A stretch of 31,798 bases of DNA, taken from IMG/VR virus record IMGVR_UViG_3300009034_000155, positions 1 to 31,798 of that record; one strand, 5' to 3'. The notes under the pieces are model-generated. The model searched no databases. It worked only from the letters and a program-made list of their open reading frames with translations, and was not told the origin of the DNA. The DNA comes from a virus. The position numbers were made by a program, and so were the translations under genes. Numbering within the stretch: position 1 is the first letter of the stretch; every line of letters begins with the position of its first letter. Of this stretch, positions 7,849 to 12,514 are shown one piece after another.

Positions 7849-8186
7849 TGACATATTTCCTTTAACTCAAATTCTATTCGCCAGACATAATCATGCCCAC
7901 TCATATCTGGATAAGCTTGTAAATAGGATTGAATAAATTCCTCAACAGTTTTTGCAAACCAACCTTCTTTCTCTAAGTCGGATTCTGGAAAACAATTCAA
8001 AGGTTCATATTTAATATCGAGTATCTTTATAATTGCAATTTTCTTTCCTCCTCTAGTCGGTAATCTATCCCAAGCTTGTACCAGATCTCCCACTTTGATC
8101 CTGCATCTCTTCCAATTTCTTCTTGTTACGGTTTTCTTTCCTTCCACTAAAGCTTTTGAAGTCCAAGCAAAACTTATTAATTTCAC
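7845..8186 (-). CDS. ASCH-domain protein, 113 aa
   Basis: ASCH domains are small PUA-related folds that bind RNA or modified nucleosides; some cut RNA or hydrolyse acetylcytidine. Here the start MKLISFAWTSKALVEGKKTVTRRNW carries the typical G-K-K-T-x-T-R-R motif, and GDLVQAWDR the second conserved strand. The start is a GTG preceded by GGAGGGATC. Its end overlaps the DUF5131 gene, a common pairing in phage genomes. Confidence 0.88.
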   Translation of the reverse strand: MKLISFAWTSKALVEGKKTVTRRNWKRCRIKVGDLVQAWDRLPTRGGKKIAIIKILDIKYEPLNCFPESDLEKEGWFAKTVEEFIQSYLQAYPDMSGHDYVWRIEFELKEICQ

Positions 8187-8266
8187 GATCCCTCCTTATT
8201 CATCCTTGCCAAATCTCTCAGAGAATCCAGAGAACTCACTGCTTCCGGAATTTCCTTTCTCTTCAT
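8183..8266 (-). CDS. 27-aa micro-ORF upstream of ASCH gene
   Basis: Starts MKRKEIPEAVSSLDSLRDL and its stop overlaps the GTG start of the ASCH gene (GTGA). The peptide looks protein-like and helical, but no Shine-Dalgarno is close to its ATG. The frame stays open further upstream without a start codon. It may be a small protein or a coupling leader. Confidence 0.4.
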   Translation of the reverse strand: MKRKEIPEAVSSLDSLRDLARMNKEGS

Positions 8267-8297
8267 ATTTGATTTATATATTCTCTTCTTAATAGTA

Positions 8298-8705
8298 TTA
8301 ATCTGGTGTACCGCCTTTTAAATCTGCTTTGATTTCAGTATCCTCCCGTCTACTAAACTTAGGAACTGCTATATTTGGATTATGATAAATATTCCAATCC
8401 CAAGTATGCATATATTCGAGATCATTTTCTACTGCACGATGCGGTAATTCTTTGCCAGTCTTAACTTCAGTATAAACATCTGGATCGTCAATATCTTGAA
8501 ATCGAGGTCTATTTTCATTAAAAAGTTCATTCAATTTCTCTCTATCTATATCGGTAATTTTTGCGAATCCCCTCTTGATTCTGAAAAAATAAGCAATACT
8601 GAATGCAGGAAATATGAATTCTCTTTTATTTTCTCGTTTATGTAATTCTCTGATTTGTTCTTCATTTAGTTTTTTCAAAATCATCATTCTACCTATTTCA
8701 TACAT
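8298..8705 (-). CDS. Hypothetical protein, 135 aa
   Basis: Begins MYEIGRMMILKKLNEEQI. The middle is rich in Asp/Pro/Arg and the end has WDWNIYHNPNIAVPKF. GGGAGGAGC precedes the ATG, which lies within the last codons of the replication initiator gene (8-nt overlap). No family is recognised. Its position right after the initiator suggests a helper role, which is inference only. Confidence 0.65.
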   Translation of the reverse strand: MYEIGRMMILKKLNEEQIRELHKRENKREFIFPAFSIAYFFRIKRGFAKITDIDREKLNELFNENRPRFQDIDDPDVYTEVKTGKELPHRAVENDLEYMHTWDWNIYHNPNIAVPKFSRREDTEIKADLKGGTPD

Positions 8706-9456
8706 TTTCTTGCTCCTCCCTTAACTTCTTAAGTTTATAATCAGAAACACGCTTGACAAAGGTTTCGATTGTATACTCTAATCCTCTTTCTTCAAGTATT
8801 TTTTTTTCTGCTATCATATAATCTACAGTTTCTTCCCAGTTATTCTTGAATGCTTTGAGGAGTTGTTTTGCGCTCCGAGAAGCACGCCTATAATTCAGCT
8901 TATCCCATTCCCTGTCTTGCTTCTTAAAACCTTTGAGCATTTTATAAGCGCAAATAACCCGACCTATATCATCTTTGATGATATATTCTTTATCATTCTT
9001 TCTAACATTATTATTACATTCTTTAACATTATTGTTTTGTTTCGACTCGTGTTCGACTCGTGTTCGACTCGTGTTCGACTCGTGTTCGACTTTGTGTTCT
9101 TTCTTATGTTCGGTTTTCCCTTGGTATTTCTGCCAGTTTCGTATATAGATATGTGTGAAATTATGTTCGGTTTTGTATTCAATTGATTGTTCGGTTTTTT
9201 GAAGAAAGTTTAAAAACGCATTAACGGTACTAATAGACCACCTCCATTTTCGACTAAGTTTTCTTTGTGAAGTTACAAATGAACCCAAAGGCACATTGTA
9301 ATAGTTATCATCTATAATTAGACTTGTATTTTTATGACTTGCAGTAAATAGTATATCTACCCAAGCCTGTCCCCTAGTGAATCTTTCTTTACTCCACCAT
9401 TTTTTTTCTTGAAGTTGTCTGTATAGTCTGATATATCCTTGATATGGGGTTGCCAT
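8698..9456 (-). CDS. DnaD-like phage replication initiator, 252 aa
   Basis: The N-terminal winged-helix pattern of replisome organiser proteins is visible: GQAWVDILFTASHK, then GSFVTSQRKLSRKWRWSIS followed by VNAFLNFLQ. The C-terminal part (about residues 165-252) is helical and charged, like a DnaD or helicase-loader-interacting domain. The middle linker is repetitive (KTEH, VEHES) because it lies over the 11-bp DNA repeats. The ATG at 9456 follows AAAGGAG; the in-frame extension to a TTG at 9549 covers structured leader RNA and is rejected. Expected job: bind the origin and recruit helicase. P2 lies upstream. Confidence 0.8.
   Translation of the reverse strand: MATPYQGYIRLYRQLQEKKWWSKERFTRGQAWVDILFTASHKNTSLIIDDNYYNVPLGSFVTSQRKLSRKWRWSISTVNAFLNFLQKTEQSIEYKTEHNFTHIYIRNWQKYQGKTEHKKEHKVEHESNTSRTRVEHESKQNNNVKECNNNVRKNDKEYIIKDDIGRVICAYKMLKGFKKQDREWDKLNYRRASRSAKQLLKAFKNNWEETVDYMIAEKKILEERGLEYTIETFVKRVSDYKLKKLREEQENV
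9041..9096. repeat. 11-bp tandem repeats, likely origin iterons
   Basis: Four perfect tandem copies of TTCGACTCGTG run from 9041 to 9084, followed by a degenerate fifth (9085-9096). Since 11 is not a multiple of three, the repeats are read in changing frames through the initiator gene, so selection on protein sequence alone would not produce them. Three further copies of GTTCGGTTTT flank them (9108, 9165 and 9189). Iterons inside the initiator gene mark the origin in lambda-like and many Gram-positive phages. Confidence 0.75.
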
Positions 9457-9477
9457 AAAATTCAAAACTCCTTTCAG

Positions 9478-9547
9478 CAGTTGTCCATACCACAACTGCC
9501 TCCAGGAGCATCTTTCAAATAAAAAAGGCACTGGGTATGGCACTGCC
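9478..9547 (-). promoter_or_regulatory. Two-hairpin leader RNA with complementary loops
   Basis: On the transcript from P2, hairpin 1 (9547-9527) has a 7-bp stem with one G-G mismatch and the loop CCATACC. Hairpin 2 (9498-9478) has a perfect 7-bp stem (CAGTTGT/ACAACTG) and the loop GGTATGG. The two 7-nt loops are perfectly complementary, so they can form a kissing complex. The translation start of the initiator lies 22 nt after hairpin 2, with AAAGGAG between. Confidence 0.7.
9521..9547 (-). terminator. Leader terminator-like hairpin (attenuator)
   Basis: Hairpin GGCAGTG-CCATACC-CAGTGCC is followed at once by TTTTTT on the minus strand. It would end transcription about 48 nt after the predicted P2 start, releasing a short RNA. 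The imperfect 7-bp stem suggests partial termination. Confidence 0.6.
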
Positions 9548-9574
9548 AACTAAAAATATCTCAAACTTTCCCAC

Positions 9575-9603
9575 ATTATACAAAATCATATTTGCATTGT
9601 CAA
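9575..9603 (-). promoter_or_regulatory. Promoter P2, sigma-70 type
   Basis: Perfect -35 TTGACA (9603-9598), 17-nt spacer and perfect -10 TATAAT (9580-9575) on the minus strand. Its -35 box contains the stop codon of the 47-aa gene. It shares the context TTTTGTATAATGT with P1. The start of transcription is expected near 9568, giving a leader of about 112 nt before the initiator ATG. Confidence 0.9.
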
Positions 9604-9743
9604 GTCTTTTCATAATTTTTTAGTTTGCGAATTTTCTTTCCTTCCATCGATATAGTTTTGTACGGTGGTTTGAATAACTGGATTTTACTTAACAGTTTGA
9701 ATTTACCATTATCAAGTTTTTTAGCTATAAAGAGTTGTTTCAT
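9600..9743 (-). CDS. Small basic protein, 47 aa
   Basis: A complete ORF starting MKQLFIAKKLDNGKFKLLSK and rich in Lys. The ATG overlaps the stop of the radical SAM gene (ATGA). Its TGA stop lies within the -35 box of P2. No motif is recognised; the basic character would suit nucleic-acid binding. Confidence 0.65.
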   Translation of the reverse strand: MKQLFIAKKLDNGKFKLLSKIQLFKPPYKTISMEGKKIRKLKNYEKT

Positions 9744-10558
9744 TTGTTTGCCTTCATCATAGATTTTATAATTGCTGGTCTTGACCAGTTTCTAATAAAA
9801 TCTTTTTCTTCATCACTATATTCATCTTTGTTTGATTTTGAATTTCTATATGGTTGAATAAAAGGTAGTGTTCCACACTTATAAGCAAATTTTAACCGAA
9901 CTTCAGCCCGGAAAATACTTTCCTTATAGCCTGCCAAAACATAACAACGTAATTGATCCTTTGTAAAACCCGCCTTGGCTAATTTTTCACAAGCATTTTG
10001 AAATACCTCAAATCTATTTTCGTAATCTAAAGCGAGCCATAGTTCTTTTATTTTAAGATTTCTTAGTTGTTCAATGTGCCAATCTCTCAATAGTCTACAA
10101 TCAAAACCACCTTTGAAACGAATAGATTTTTCTTTCCGAAGCATATCAAAAACTTTATTCAGATGTTTTTTAGAAGATAATAAAATATTATTATCTTGAA
10201 TTATATTGCCCGGTTCGATATGATGTAATTCTCTAAATGTACCTTCCATTCTTGGAACTAAACACCAAGGACAATTAAAATTACAACCCCTGGTAGTAAA
10301 GGTAATTCCTTTCTTTATATATCTGCCTGGCATAAAATCCTCATAGTAAATAGGCCTTGCTGGACCCCCTATTCTTGTTTTACCAAGTTTAGACCAGTAA
10401 TTGAACATTCGCCATGCTTTCGATAAGTCCCAAGTAAAACAAACAGAAATATGGATTTCATCAAATCTGGGGAGCGCAAGACTCTGGAATCCGAATCTCA
10501 CATAGCTATCTACGGGCGTGCAACTCGTTTTCCTAGGAAAAACTCTCAAAATCCTCAT
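9740..10558 (-). CDS. Phage radical SAM protein, 272 aa
   Basis: The cluster-binding motif CNFNCPWC (C92-x3-C96-x2-C99) is preceded by TTRG, as in radical SAM enzymes that ligate a 4Fe-4S cluster and cleave S-adenosylmethionine. The start MRILRVFPRKTS followed by HISVCFTWDLSKAWR and KIGGP-like RIGGPARPI matches a phage subfamily I know only as uncharacterised radical SAM. The later FKGGFDCRLLRDWHI and ELWLALDYE fit the barrel strands. Substrate unknown. It overlaps the upstream gene by 4 nt and sits next to replication genes. Confidence 0.85.
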   Translation of the reverse strand: MRILRVFPRKTSCTPVDSYVRFGFQSLALPRFDEIHISVCFTWDLSKAWRMFNYWSKLGKTRIGGPARPIYYEDFMPGRYIKKGITFTTRGCNFNCPWCLVPRMEGTFRELHHIEPGNIIQDNNILLSSKKHLNKVFDMLRKEKSIRFKGGFDCRLLRDWHIEQLRNLKIKELWLALDYENRFEVFQNACEKLAKAGFTKDQLRCYVLAGYKESIFRAEVRLKFAYKCGTLPFIQPYRNSKSNKDEYSDEEKDFIRNWSRPAIIKSMMKANK

Positions 10559-10908
10559 ATCAACTCCAACTGTTCGATTTTCCGGCCTGATGCCTCAGAT
10601 TGGGCTAAATCTGGCTCAGGTTTGCGTTCTGGTAGGCTTTCAGGCTTAGAATCGATGACTAACTCCTTCAAAAGCAAATAAATGGCTTGTTTATAGCCTT
10701 TTCTGATATATGGGGCATATTCTGGCTTATTCTTATGCTCTTTGGTATTTATATTGATTATTTGGTTGCCTCTGTCCCGCAAATTCGAAATCCTTGAACG
10801 TAACGCCCAGTTGTGAGTTCCTGGAGGTTTGCATTTAATATAGAACTCTTCCACATCATGCGGAACATGATCAGCTAATACCTGGAGTATTAAATCACAA
10901 TCATTCAT
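10555..10908 (-). CDS. Winged-helix DNA-binding protein, 117 aa
   Basis: Residues about 28-50 (GTHNWALRSRISNLRDRGNQI) show the recognition-helix-and-wing pattern of a winged helix-turn-helix. The N-terminus LILQVLADHVPHDVEEFY fits the first two helices. The C-terminal third is low-complexity and Pro/Glu-rich. Possible roles are a transcription regulator or a replication accessory. Coupled to the radical SAM gene by an ATGA overlap. Confidence 0.7.
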   Translation of the reverse strand: MNDCDLILQVLADHVPHDVEEFYIKCKPPGTHNWALRSRISNLRDRGNQIININTKEHKNKPEYAPYIRKGYKQAIYLLLKELVIDSKPESLPERKPEPDLAQSEASGRKIEQLELI

Positions 10909-10909
10909 T

Positions 10910-11098
10910 TTACCATCCGATTTCTTTACTTATCTCTGGAGTAAAACCACCAAACTTTTCAAATCTTACAATGATTATATTCAACAATAATCTTTCACTA
11001 TCATTTTCTGGAGAACACAGAAATCTATACCATTTACATATCTGCAATCTATCTGCTTTCTTAATTTGTTCTAAAGTAGGGAAATTATTTTCTTCCAT
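10910..11098 (-). CDS. Conserved phage small protein, 62 aa
   Basis: The pattern PTLEQIKKADRLQICKWYRFL with a final FGGFTPEISKEIGW (each shown in part) recurs in many phages as a protein of unknown function; members are short and helical, as here. The ATG has no strong Shine-Dalgarno. It sits between the SSB-like and winged-helix genes, so a link with replication is plausible. Confidence 0.75.
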   Translation of the reverse strand: MEENNFPTLEQIKKADRLQICKWYRFLCSPENDSERLLLNIIIVRFEKFGGFTPEISKEIGW

Positions 11099-11102
11099 AT
11101 TG

Positions 11103-11480
11103 CTAAAAAGGAATATGTTCTGTGATATTCCTCATCTTAGCCCAAGACTTATCTGGATCATCTCTATCTGGCTCATGAATAATTTTCGCATCAACTTTCT
11201 TTTCTTTTAAGTCTGCCAAATCCCATCGTATTTTTTTAGTCTTTTCATCTTCTTCAAAACCCATCGCAATTAATAACGGCTTTATATCCCAAGAAAAAAA
11301 AGTTTGGAAATGTTTTCCGGTCCAAGAATTTTCCCTTTTATCATCAATCTCACGAGTTAGAAATTTAATCTGGTACTTAGCTCCTTTTCTCAAAGGAACT
11401 TTCTTAGGAACTTCAGCAACTAGAAAAACATATTTCCCTTCTGGGGTTATTGCAAAACCATTACTTGTTTCTTCTGTCAT
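11103..11480 (-). CDS. SSB-like (DUF669-type) protein, 125 aa
   Basis: The layout of GKYVFLVAEVPKKVPLRKG, YQIKFLTREI, a central FQTFFSWDIKPLLIAMGF and a late VDAKIIHEPD strand resembles the DUF669 OB-fold proteins that serve as phage single-strand DNA-binding proteins. It lies immediately after the Sak4-like ATPase gene (4-nt overlap), the usual partner. GGAGGAAAAG precedes the ATG. The family call rests on pattern and context. Confidence 0.65.
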   Translation of the reverse strand: MTEETSNGFAITPEGKYVFLVAEVPKKVPLRKGAKYQIKFLTREIDDKRENSWTGKHFQTFFSWDIKPLLIAMGFEEDEKTKKIRWDLADLKEKKVDAKIIHEPDRDDPDKSWAKMRNITEHIPF

Positions 11481-12514
11481 TTCTTTTCCTCCTTGACTTT
11501 TGTTTTTTTAATTTCCTTTAAACCTTTCTCTAAAATCTCAACTGTTTTGGATTCCAGAGCCCCCCATGCTCCAGTACCAAATGTTTTTCTCAATAATTTT
11601 ATTTTCTCTTGCTGAGATTTTTCACTTCTGTCAGAACCGAACTTCATAATCAATTCCTGTTTTATCTCTTCCAAAAATATATCTCTCTTCTTTGCATATT
11701 CAACTCTTGATTTCTGACTTCTTTCGTCAAACATTTCCTGAGAAGTTTTTTGTAAATCGACAGAATGCATTTTTCCTTTTAGGTTAAGATGTTTTATATG
11801 CGGAAGAAAATCTTTAAACTCAGGATTATCAAAATATCTACCATCAATAGAATCCCATTTATCTTTTAATACCCAGCATCTTCTAATATTCTTTGCTCCT
11901 ATTGTTCCAACTTCTTCCCGGATTCTTTCTAATTCCAAAAGCAAATCTGCTTCGTACCCGAATTCTCCCTCTGCTTTGATTTTTGTTTCTATGGCAGCCA
12001 TTTGTTTACTTCCATCTTCTTCTTCGTGATATCCGAATCTCCATCCCGAACGACCACATGCAATAATATGTAATTTCGAGAAAGAGAAGAATTGTGAAAA
12101 CTGTTTGTAAGTTTTTTTAACAGGTATCCAATGATGTGGAGACATTCTACTTATTTTCATTTTATCCATATAGGATTCGACTAATTCAGTCCAGAAATGA
12201 GTAATAGAATCTATTATAAGAATATCGGAAATACTTTCTGCCTCTTTGCATAGTTCCAATAGTTCCGAGAATGCTCTTGTCTTTTTAGTCCAGAGTTCAA
12301 TTTTATTTTCCTCAAATTTACCAATTAATTTATCAACCCCACCTTCGGAATCGATGAAACAGACAGGCTTCTTGCTATTAATGTGGTTGTGTAGTCCAAC
12401 GCCTAGTTTTCCTGCGGTGAACGTCTTACCCCCACCTTGAAACGAGAAAACAATACACTTAAAAAAACTCGATTCATTAACCGCCCTCTTGAATAGATGC
12501 TTCTTCTTTTCCAT
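11477..12514 (-). CDS. Sak4-like RecA-fold recombination ATPase
   Basis: Phage Sak4-type (AAA_24) ATPases promote single-strand annealing together with an SSB. Walker A is SFQGGGKT (24-31), a second acidic strand is VCFIDSEGG (51-59), Walker B is ILIIDS (98-103), and HIIACGRSGWRFGY is the following strand with the sensor region. The ATG at 12514 is used because GGAGGAAAAG precedes it; the upstream extension is Lys/Arg-rich and translated from the ribosome site itself. Length of 345 aa includes a helical Lys-rich tail. The start lies inside the end of the upstream gene. Confidence 0.85.
   Translation of the reverse strand: MEKKKHLFKRAVNESSFFKCIVFSFQGGGKTFTAGKLGVGLHNHINSKKPVCFIDSEGGVDKLIGKFEENKIELWTKKTRAFSELLELCKEAESISDILIIDSITHFWTELVESYMDKMKISRMSPHHWIPVKKTYKQFSQFFSFSKLHIIACGRSGWRFGYHEEEDGSKQMAAIETKIKAEGEFGYEADLLLELERIREEVGTIGAKNIRRCWVLKDKWDSIDGRYFDNPEFKDFLPHIKHLNLKGKMHSVDLQKTSQEMFDERSQKSRVEYAKKRDIFLEEIKQELIMKFGSDRSEKSQQEKIKLLRKTFGTGAWGALESKTVEILEKGLKEIKKTKVKEEKK

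Follow-up and report, generated by a model that had tools for sequence, protein, structure and literature searches.

The RNA I/RNA II pair of ColE1 and the other kissing-loop antisense systems of plasmids control replication through fully complementary 7-nt loops, which match by construction because the two RNAs come from opposite strands. Most known self-regulating leader RNAs made from the same strand as their target come from temperate phages of enterobacteria and concern immunity genes (C4, P4 CI and IsrK). The C4 antisense RNA of phages P1 and P7 shares strand and promoter with its target, and its segments a' and b' pair with the downstream mRNA, with b at the ribosome binding site (PMC5320573). 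IsrK of the Gifsy-1 prophage is a terminated short RNA that arises together with a read-through mRNA from one promoter and pairs with its own long mRNA, in which a long cis helix stands against local hairpins, one of them holding the ribosome binding site (PMC4825925). P4 CI is a leader RNA (seqA/seqB/seqC) that base-pairs elsewhere within its own transcript and controls replication genes (described in PMC4825925). Here the same logic appears to control a replication protein in phages whose hosts are uncultured; in most of these phages no integrase was detected. A limited literature search returned no published account of such a leader before a phage DnaD-like gene.

The stretch of DNA analyzed in full, hereafter the window, is a linear IMG/VR fragment of 31.8 kb. 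Tail and lysis genes occupy one of its ends, and replication and nucleotide genes occupy the opposite one. Neither an integrase nor an HTH_3 repressor was detected in the window, and the integrase was likewise undetected in 10 of the 11 related records, several of which are fragments. The gene under study (8698-9456, minus strand) encodes a 252-aa DnaD-like helicase loader or replisome organizer that matches a DnaD-like phage family (phrog_2514, E = 1.7e-25; phrog_186, E = 2.5e-11). Its leader lies on the minus strand between this gene and a radical-SAM gene (10558-9740). The radical-SAM protein (window 9740-10558, about 270 aa) has counterparts in L097-L132 and L183-L205 and occurs at 42-56% identity in many phages as well as in contigs of bacteria (Acetobacterium, Clostridia, Omnitrophota, Aminicenantes). 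Inside the DnaD-like gene, at 9041-9095, there are four tandem copies of the 11-nt iteron TTCGACTCGTG. Two related loci, L207 and L133, carry iterons at the same place within the gene with differing sequences, ATGAGCGGAAC-type repeats at about 3335-3392 in L207 and CCGAACACTCC-type repeats at about 895-955 in L133. Replication origins are found inside the initiator gene in lambda O and SPP1 gene 38, and the intragenic iterons are probably such an origin.

The initial annotation had placed a perfect promoter before the leader and, within the leader, two hairpins with matching loops; both claims are borne out. A -35 element TTGACA (9603-9598) and a -10 element TATAAT (9580-9575) separated by a 17-nt spacer match the sigma-70 consensus at 12/12 positions (9575-9603, minus strand), the only such match in a scan of 8000-12000. 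Transcription is expected to start near 9568, giving a leader of about 112 nt. Hairpin 1 (9527-9547, GGCA.TG[CCATACC]CA.TGCC) has its loop at 9540-9534 and a stem of six pairs (four plus two) flanking one G.G mismatch, with a folding energy of -7.5 kcal/mol. It is followed directly by a run of six T residues (T6, 9521-9526), the possible 3' end of an RNA of about 48 nt. Hairpin 2 (9477-9499), GCAGTTGT[GGTATGG]ACAACTGC, has its loop at 9491-9485 and a stem of eight perfect pairs (z = -3.7). The loops CCATACC and GGTATGG are exact complements (7/7), and the two hairpins are the only nearby pair in the whole window whose loops are complementary over at least 6 nt. Dinucleotide shuffling of the leader gave no such loop-matched pair in 20,000 sequences; shuffling of the whole window, with both strands searched, gave one in 1 of 60. 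The further claim that hairpin 1 is terminator-like stood in part: the T6 run directly follows it, but its stem is weak and mismatched and was unlisted by a scan demanding a perfect stem.

The two loops are embedded in longer complementary arms. In the minimum free energy fold, segment A (9524-9546, minus strand), whose core is the loop of hairpin 1, forms 23 pairs with segment A' (9477-9503), which contains hairpin 2, yielding one imperfect helix of about 23 bp with three bulges (-27.2 kcal/mol). The loop match may thus follow in part from a longer inverted repeat, because complementary arms give mirror-image hairpins. On inspection of this one case, segment A differs from the reverse complement of A' by single-base indels and a mismatch outside the loops and by none in the seven loop bases, as would be expected if loop pairing were selected. 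Folding of the complete leader gives -35.6 kcal/mol (z = -3.3). In a predicted alternative both hairpins are kept, and segment B (GCTCCT, 9504-9509), an anti-Shine-Dalgarno sequence in the outer stem of hairpin 2, pairs with segment B' (AGGAGT, 9467-9472), which contains the Shine-Dalgarno sequence (AAAGGAG, 12-18 nt before the ATG at 9456). This local-hairpin state is predicted at -32.2 kcal/mol with the kissing contact uncounted, and the long-helix and local-hairpin folds therefore compete, since only 3.4 kcal/mol separates them before that contact is counted. The Shine-Dalgarno sequence is predicted to be mostly paired in both folds, and its G and A bases are mostly paired in the ensemble. 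The segments in the window follow one another as A-B-A'-B', with CCATACC in A and GGTATGG in A'. By a generic statistic for crossing helices this leader is borderline (8/150 shuffles), the B:B' helix being 6 bp.

The leader is a real RNA element, probably a functional one and more complex than the initial annotation had it, and judged from its sequence it looks selected for RNA self-pairing beside the ribosome binding site of a replication gene. We think it fairly likely that it is a self-pairing RNA switch on the replisome organizer mRNA that gates synthesis of the protein. When A' is folded on itself, the resulting hairpin would be closed by the helix covering the Shine-Dalgarno sequence, and ribosome access would be blocked. 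When A is paired with A', either in the same RNA or through a short RNA ending at T6, the hairpin would be rearranged and expression would change. We infer that the predicted folding also holds in the cell and that the controlled step is translation, or termination in the case of some relatives; the direction in which expression changes is likewise inferred. Copy-number control, as had been proposed for the leader, is a possible role.

Nucleotide and single-protein searches returned no close relatives in phages, plasmids, IMG/VR or GTDB contigs, and no relative was found close enough to score paired changes in the two loops. Eight IMG/VR matches to a DNA pattern of both loops and their flanks lacked every window gene and were judged to be chance. 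In the loci found through AAA_24 and radical-SAM neighbors (L017, L097-L132), the DnaD gene and the leader do not occur together. Alignment-guided searches yielded the informative relatives, L133 and L207, whose DnaD proteins are the two closest found: that of L133 is 55% identical over the protein, and that of L207 is 59% identical over residues 7-145 and 44% overall. In both, a consensus-like promoter lies a short distance before the gene, and the leader measures about 120-130 nt and shows no evident sequence similarity to the window leader. In the L133 leader GGTGAAACAA pairs with TTGTTTCACC, and AAGGACGTATG pairs with CATACGTCCTT, which is followed by TTTTATTTT. In the L207 leader AGAAGATTG-TAATAGGAAATT pairs with AATTTCCTATTAGCAATCTTCT, and TCTTCCTGCAAGTGG pairs with CCACTTGCAGGAGGA, inside which the Shine-Dalgarno sequence lies. 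Each leader thus contains two long helices that cross in the order A-B-A'-B', an arrangement matched by 0/3000 shuffles in either case, and the pairing recurs where the sequence is unrelated. Pairing of A with A' would disturb the Shine-Dalgarno hairpin in the window and L207, and a terminator-like hairpin in L133 and others. The kissing-loop geometry that had been noted is present in the window leader but was not seen in L133 or L207. Both leaders are open in one frame nearly throughout (L207 2868-2990; L133 about 407-529); each frame spans about 40 codons and stops shortly ahead of the DnaD start, and the L207 frame starts with ATG at the expected transcription start. These frames may encode a leader peptide or may be chance; the two show no likeness to each other, and in AT-rich DNA frames of this kind are no rarity.

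We then scanned the 200-nt regions that precede the DnaD-like homologues and other genes of the same loci for the best crossing helix pair relative to shuffles. With near-duplicates removed, and counting loci with an upstream gap of at least 100 nt or no upstream frame found, crossing-helix leaders at p<=0.0067 precede 8/28 DnaD-like genes as compared to 4/210 controls (Fisher p = 5e-6), in a set that was assembled during exploration and not replicated in an independent one. The strong cases (L259, L133, L207, L253, L215, L264, L178 and L267) share no evident common sequence; often A' lies shortly before B', and B' overlaps the Shine-Dalgarno sequence or precedes a T-rich run. A repeat of the enrichment in bacterial genomes was without power because most homologues there lie inside operons and have no leaders. 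Asymmetry between G-U and A-C pairs as a measure of transcript-strand preference was 5 vs 1 and 6 vs 3, neither significant. Among the control matches, the segment at L053:3409-3543, before a Rha-like gene, is the Rfam family sRNA-Xcc1 (RF02221), and L067:5419-5564 is a crossing-helix leader before an AAA_24 gene. The scan therefore recovers a known sRNA family, and with the AAA_24 case this indicates that the design is seemingly not limited to DnaD; it may be a common feature ahead of early genes in phages. In L338, a 278-nt gap before the DnaD-like gene holds a strong simple hairpin of the AATACTAAAGGACC/GGTCCCTTAGTATT type, about 50 nt from the gene, and no crossing helices. As a tentative proposal, which we hold more doubtful than not, DnaD-like replication genes with their own promoter would often carry a previously undescribed class of leader, in which the crossing order A-B-A'-B' is constant and the sequence is not conserved. 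In such leaders a Shine-Dalgarno or terminator helix would be set against an upstream segment, sometimes with a short RNA also acting in trans, so that replication is controlled by RNA only.

Control from the same strand was also part of the initial annotation, in which hairpin 1 could terminate some transcripts and the released RNA of about 48 nt could use its 7-nt loop to bind hairpin 2 in trans on full-length mRNAs. In full, this model would give dose-dependent control of the replication protein, like C4 or IsrK. Such release and trans action are a possibility, although we doubt that they are the main mechanism. They fit the T6 run and the fully complementary loops, a duplex between the 48-nt RNA and the Shine-Dalgarno region is predicted at -37.8 kcal/mol, and IsrK offers a precedent for short RNA and read-through mRNA from one promoter (PMC4825925). 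They would need termination at T6 or processing, however, and hairpin 1 is weak, while the same pairing is available in cis at a higher local concentration. Same-strand logic as such is used by C4, IsrK and P4 CI, but the release of a short RNA at hairpin 1 is not a conserved feature, since both L133 and L207 lack a T-run after the first segment. Trans action is accordingly possible in the window and not an evident property of the class, because T6 is absent from these two relatives and because L264 and L222 have almost no space between B and A'.

If the inverted repeats acted as DNA, as operators for a repressor or for the replication protein itself, the RNA structure would be a by-product. 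Inverted repeats read identically in DNA, and the two arms, which closely follow the promoter, resemble each other as dyad elements in inverted orientation. However, relatives with DnaD proteins 44-59% identical share no leader motif, the 5 occurrences of CCATACC in the window are no significant enrichment (2.0 expected; 6/100 shuffles reach 5), and it is unusual for operators to form crossing 10-20 bp helices separated by as much as 90 nt, which makes this explanation improbable. We regard as similarly unlikely an autoregulation purely in cis, in which translation is blocked by a phage protein, the DnaD-like one or another, that binds the folded leader, and the loop contact only shapes the site. 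The Shine-Dalgarno sequence does lie inside the structure, and translational feedback would be natural for a replication protein, but relatives with 55-59% identity in the N-terminal DNA-binding domain conserve no RNA motif, contrary to expectation for an RNA recognized by a protein. That two ordinary hairpins have loops matching by accident is very unlikely. The frequency of such pairs in whole-window shuffles, about 1/60, and the many patterns that a reader views would allow for it, but the pair sits in the single short leader that separates a perfect promoter from a Shine-Dalgarno sequence, where leader shuffles never produced it, and the relatives show independent and far stronger self-pairing at the same place.

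The self-pairing switch that we favor has a consequence for the detection of such leaders: libraries of covariance models would miss them, since the pairing persists despite complete change of sequence. A search based on architecture finds them and could reveal many more. With cmscan and all Rfam families, the window gave no match beyond chance even at E<=5, and the 11 relatives gave none.

The window leader resembles ColE1 in having fully complementary 7-nt loops and a replication function, but it is not an antisense pair of that type because both hairpins lie on one strand; no plus-strand promoter-like site of at least 9/12 was found within 9400-9700 in the 8000-12000 scan. With P4 CI it shares a leader RNA that pairs within its own transcript and replication genes as targets. 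P4 CI is processed and acts by transcription termination in lysogeny, whereas in the window the Shine-Dalgarno sequence is the likely platform and no integrase was detected. IsrK differs in sequence and covariance (no cmscan match), and the target in the window is the DnaD-like gene directly downstream; in place of an intrinsic terminator the window has T6 after a weak, mismatched stem, and L133 and L207 have no such run. Like IsrK, the window leader has a long cis helix opposed to local hairpins that hold the ribosome binding site, at predicted energies of -35.6 vs -32.2 kcal/mol. IsrK activates in this geometry, whereas C4 represses. C4 (RF01695) is processed by RNase P to about 77 nt and targets an antirepressor rather than a replication gene, and the window has neither the three-stem C4 fold nor a covariance match to it. 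As in C4, promoter, A, B, A', B' and gene all run in one direction in the window, and the order A-B-A'-B' is seen directly in L053 (sRNA-Xcc1) and in L207. The two mRNA-complementary segments of C4, the second at the ribosome binding site, are clear in L207; in the window the A:A' pairing is clear, and B:B' is represented by the 6-bp anti-Shine-Dalgarno helix.
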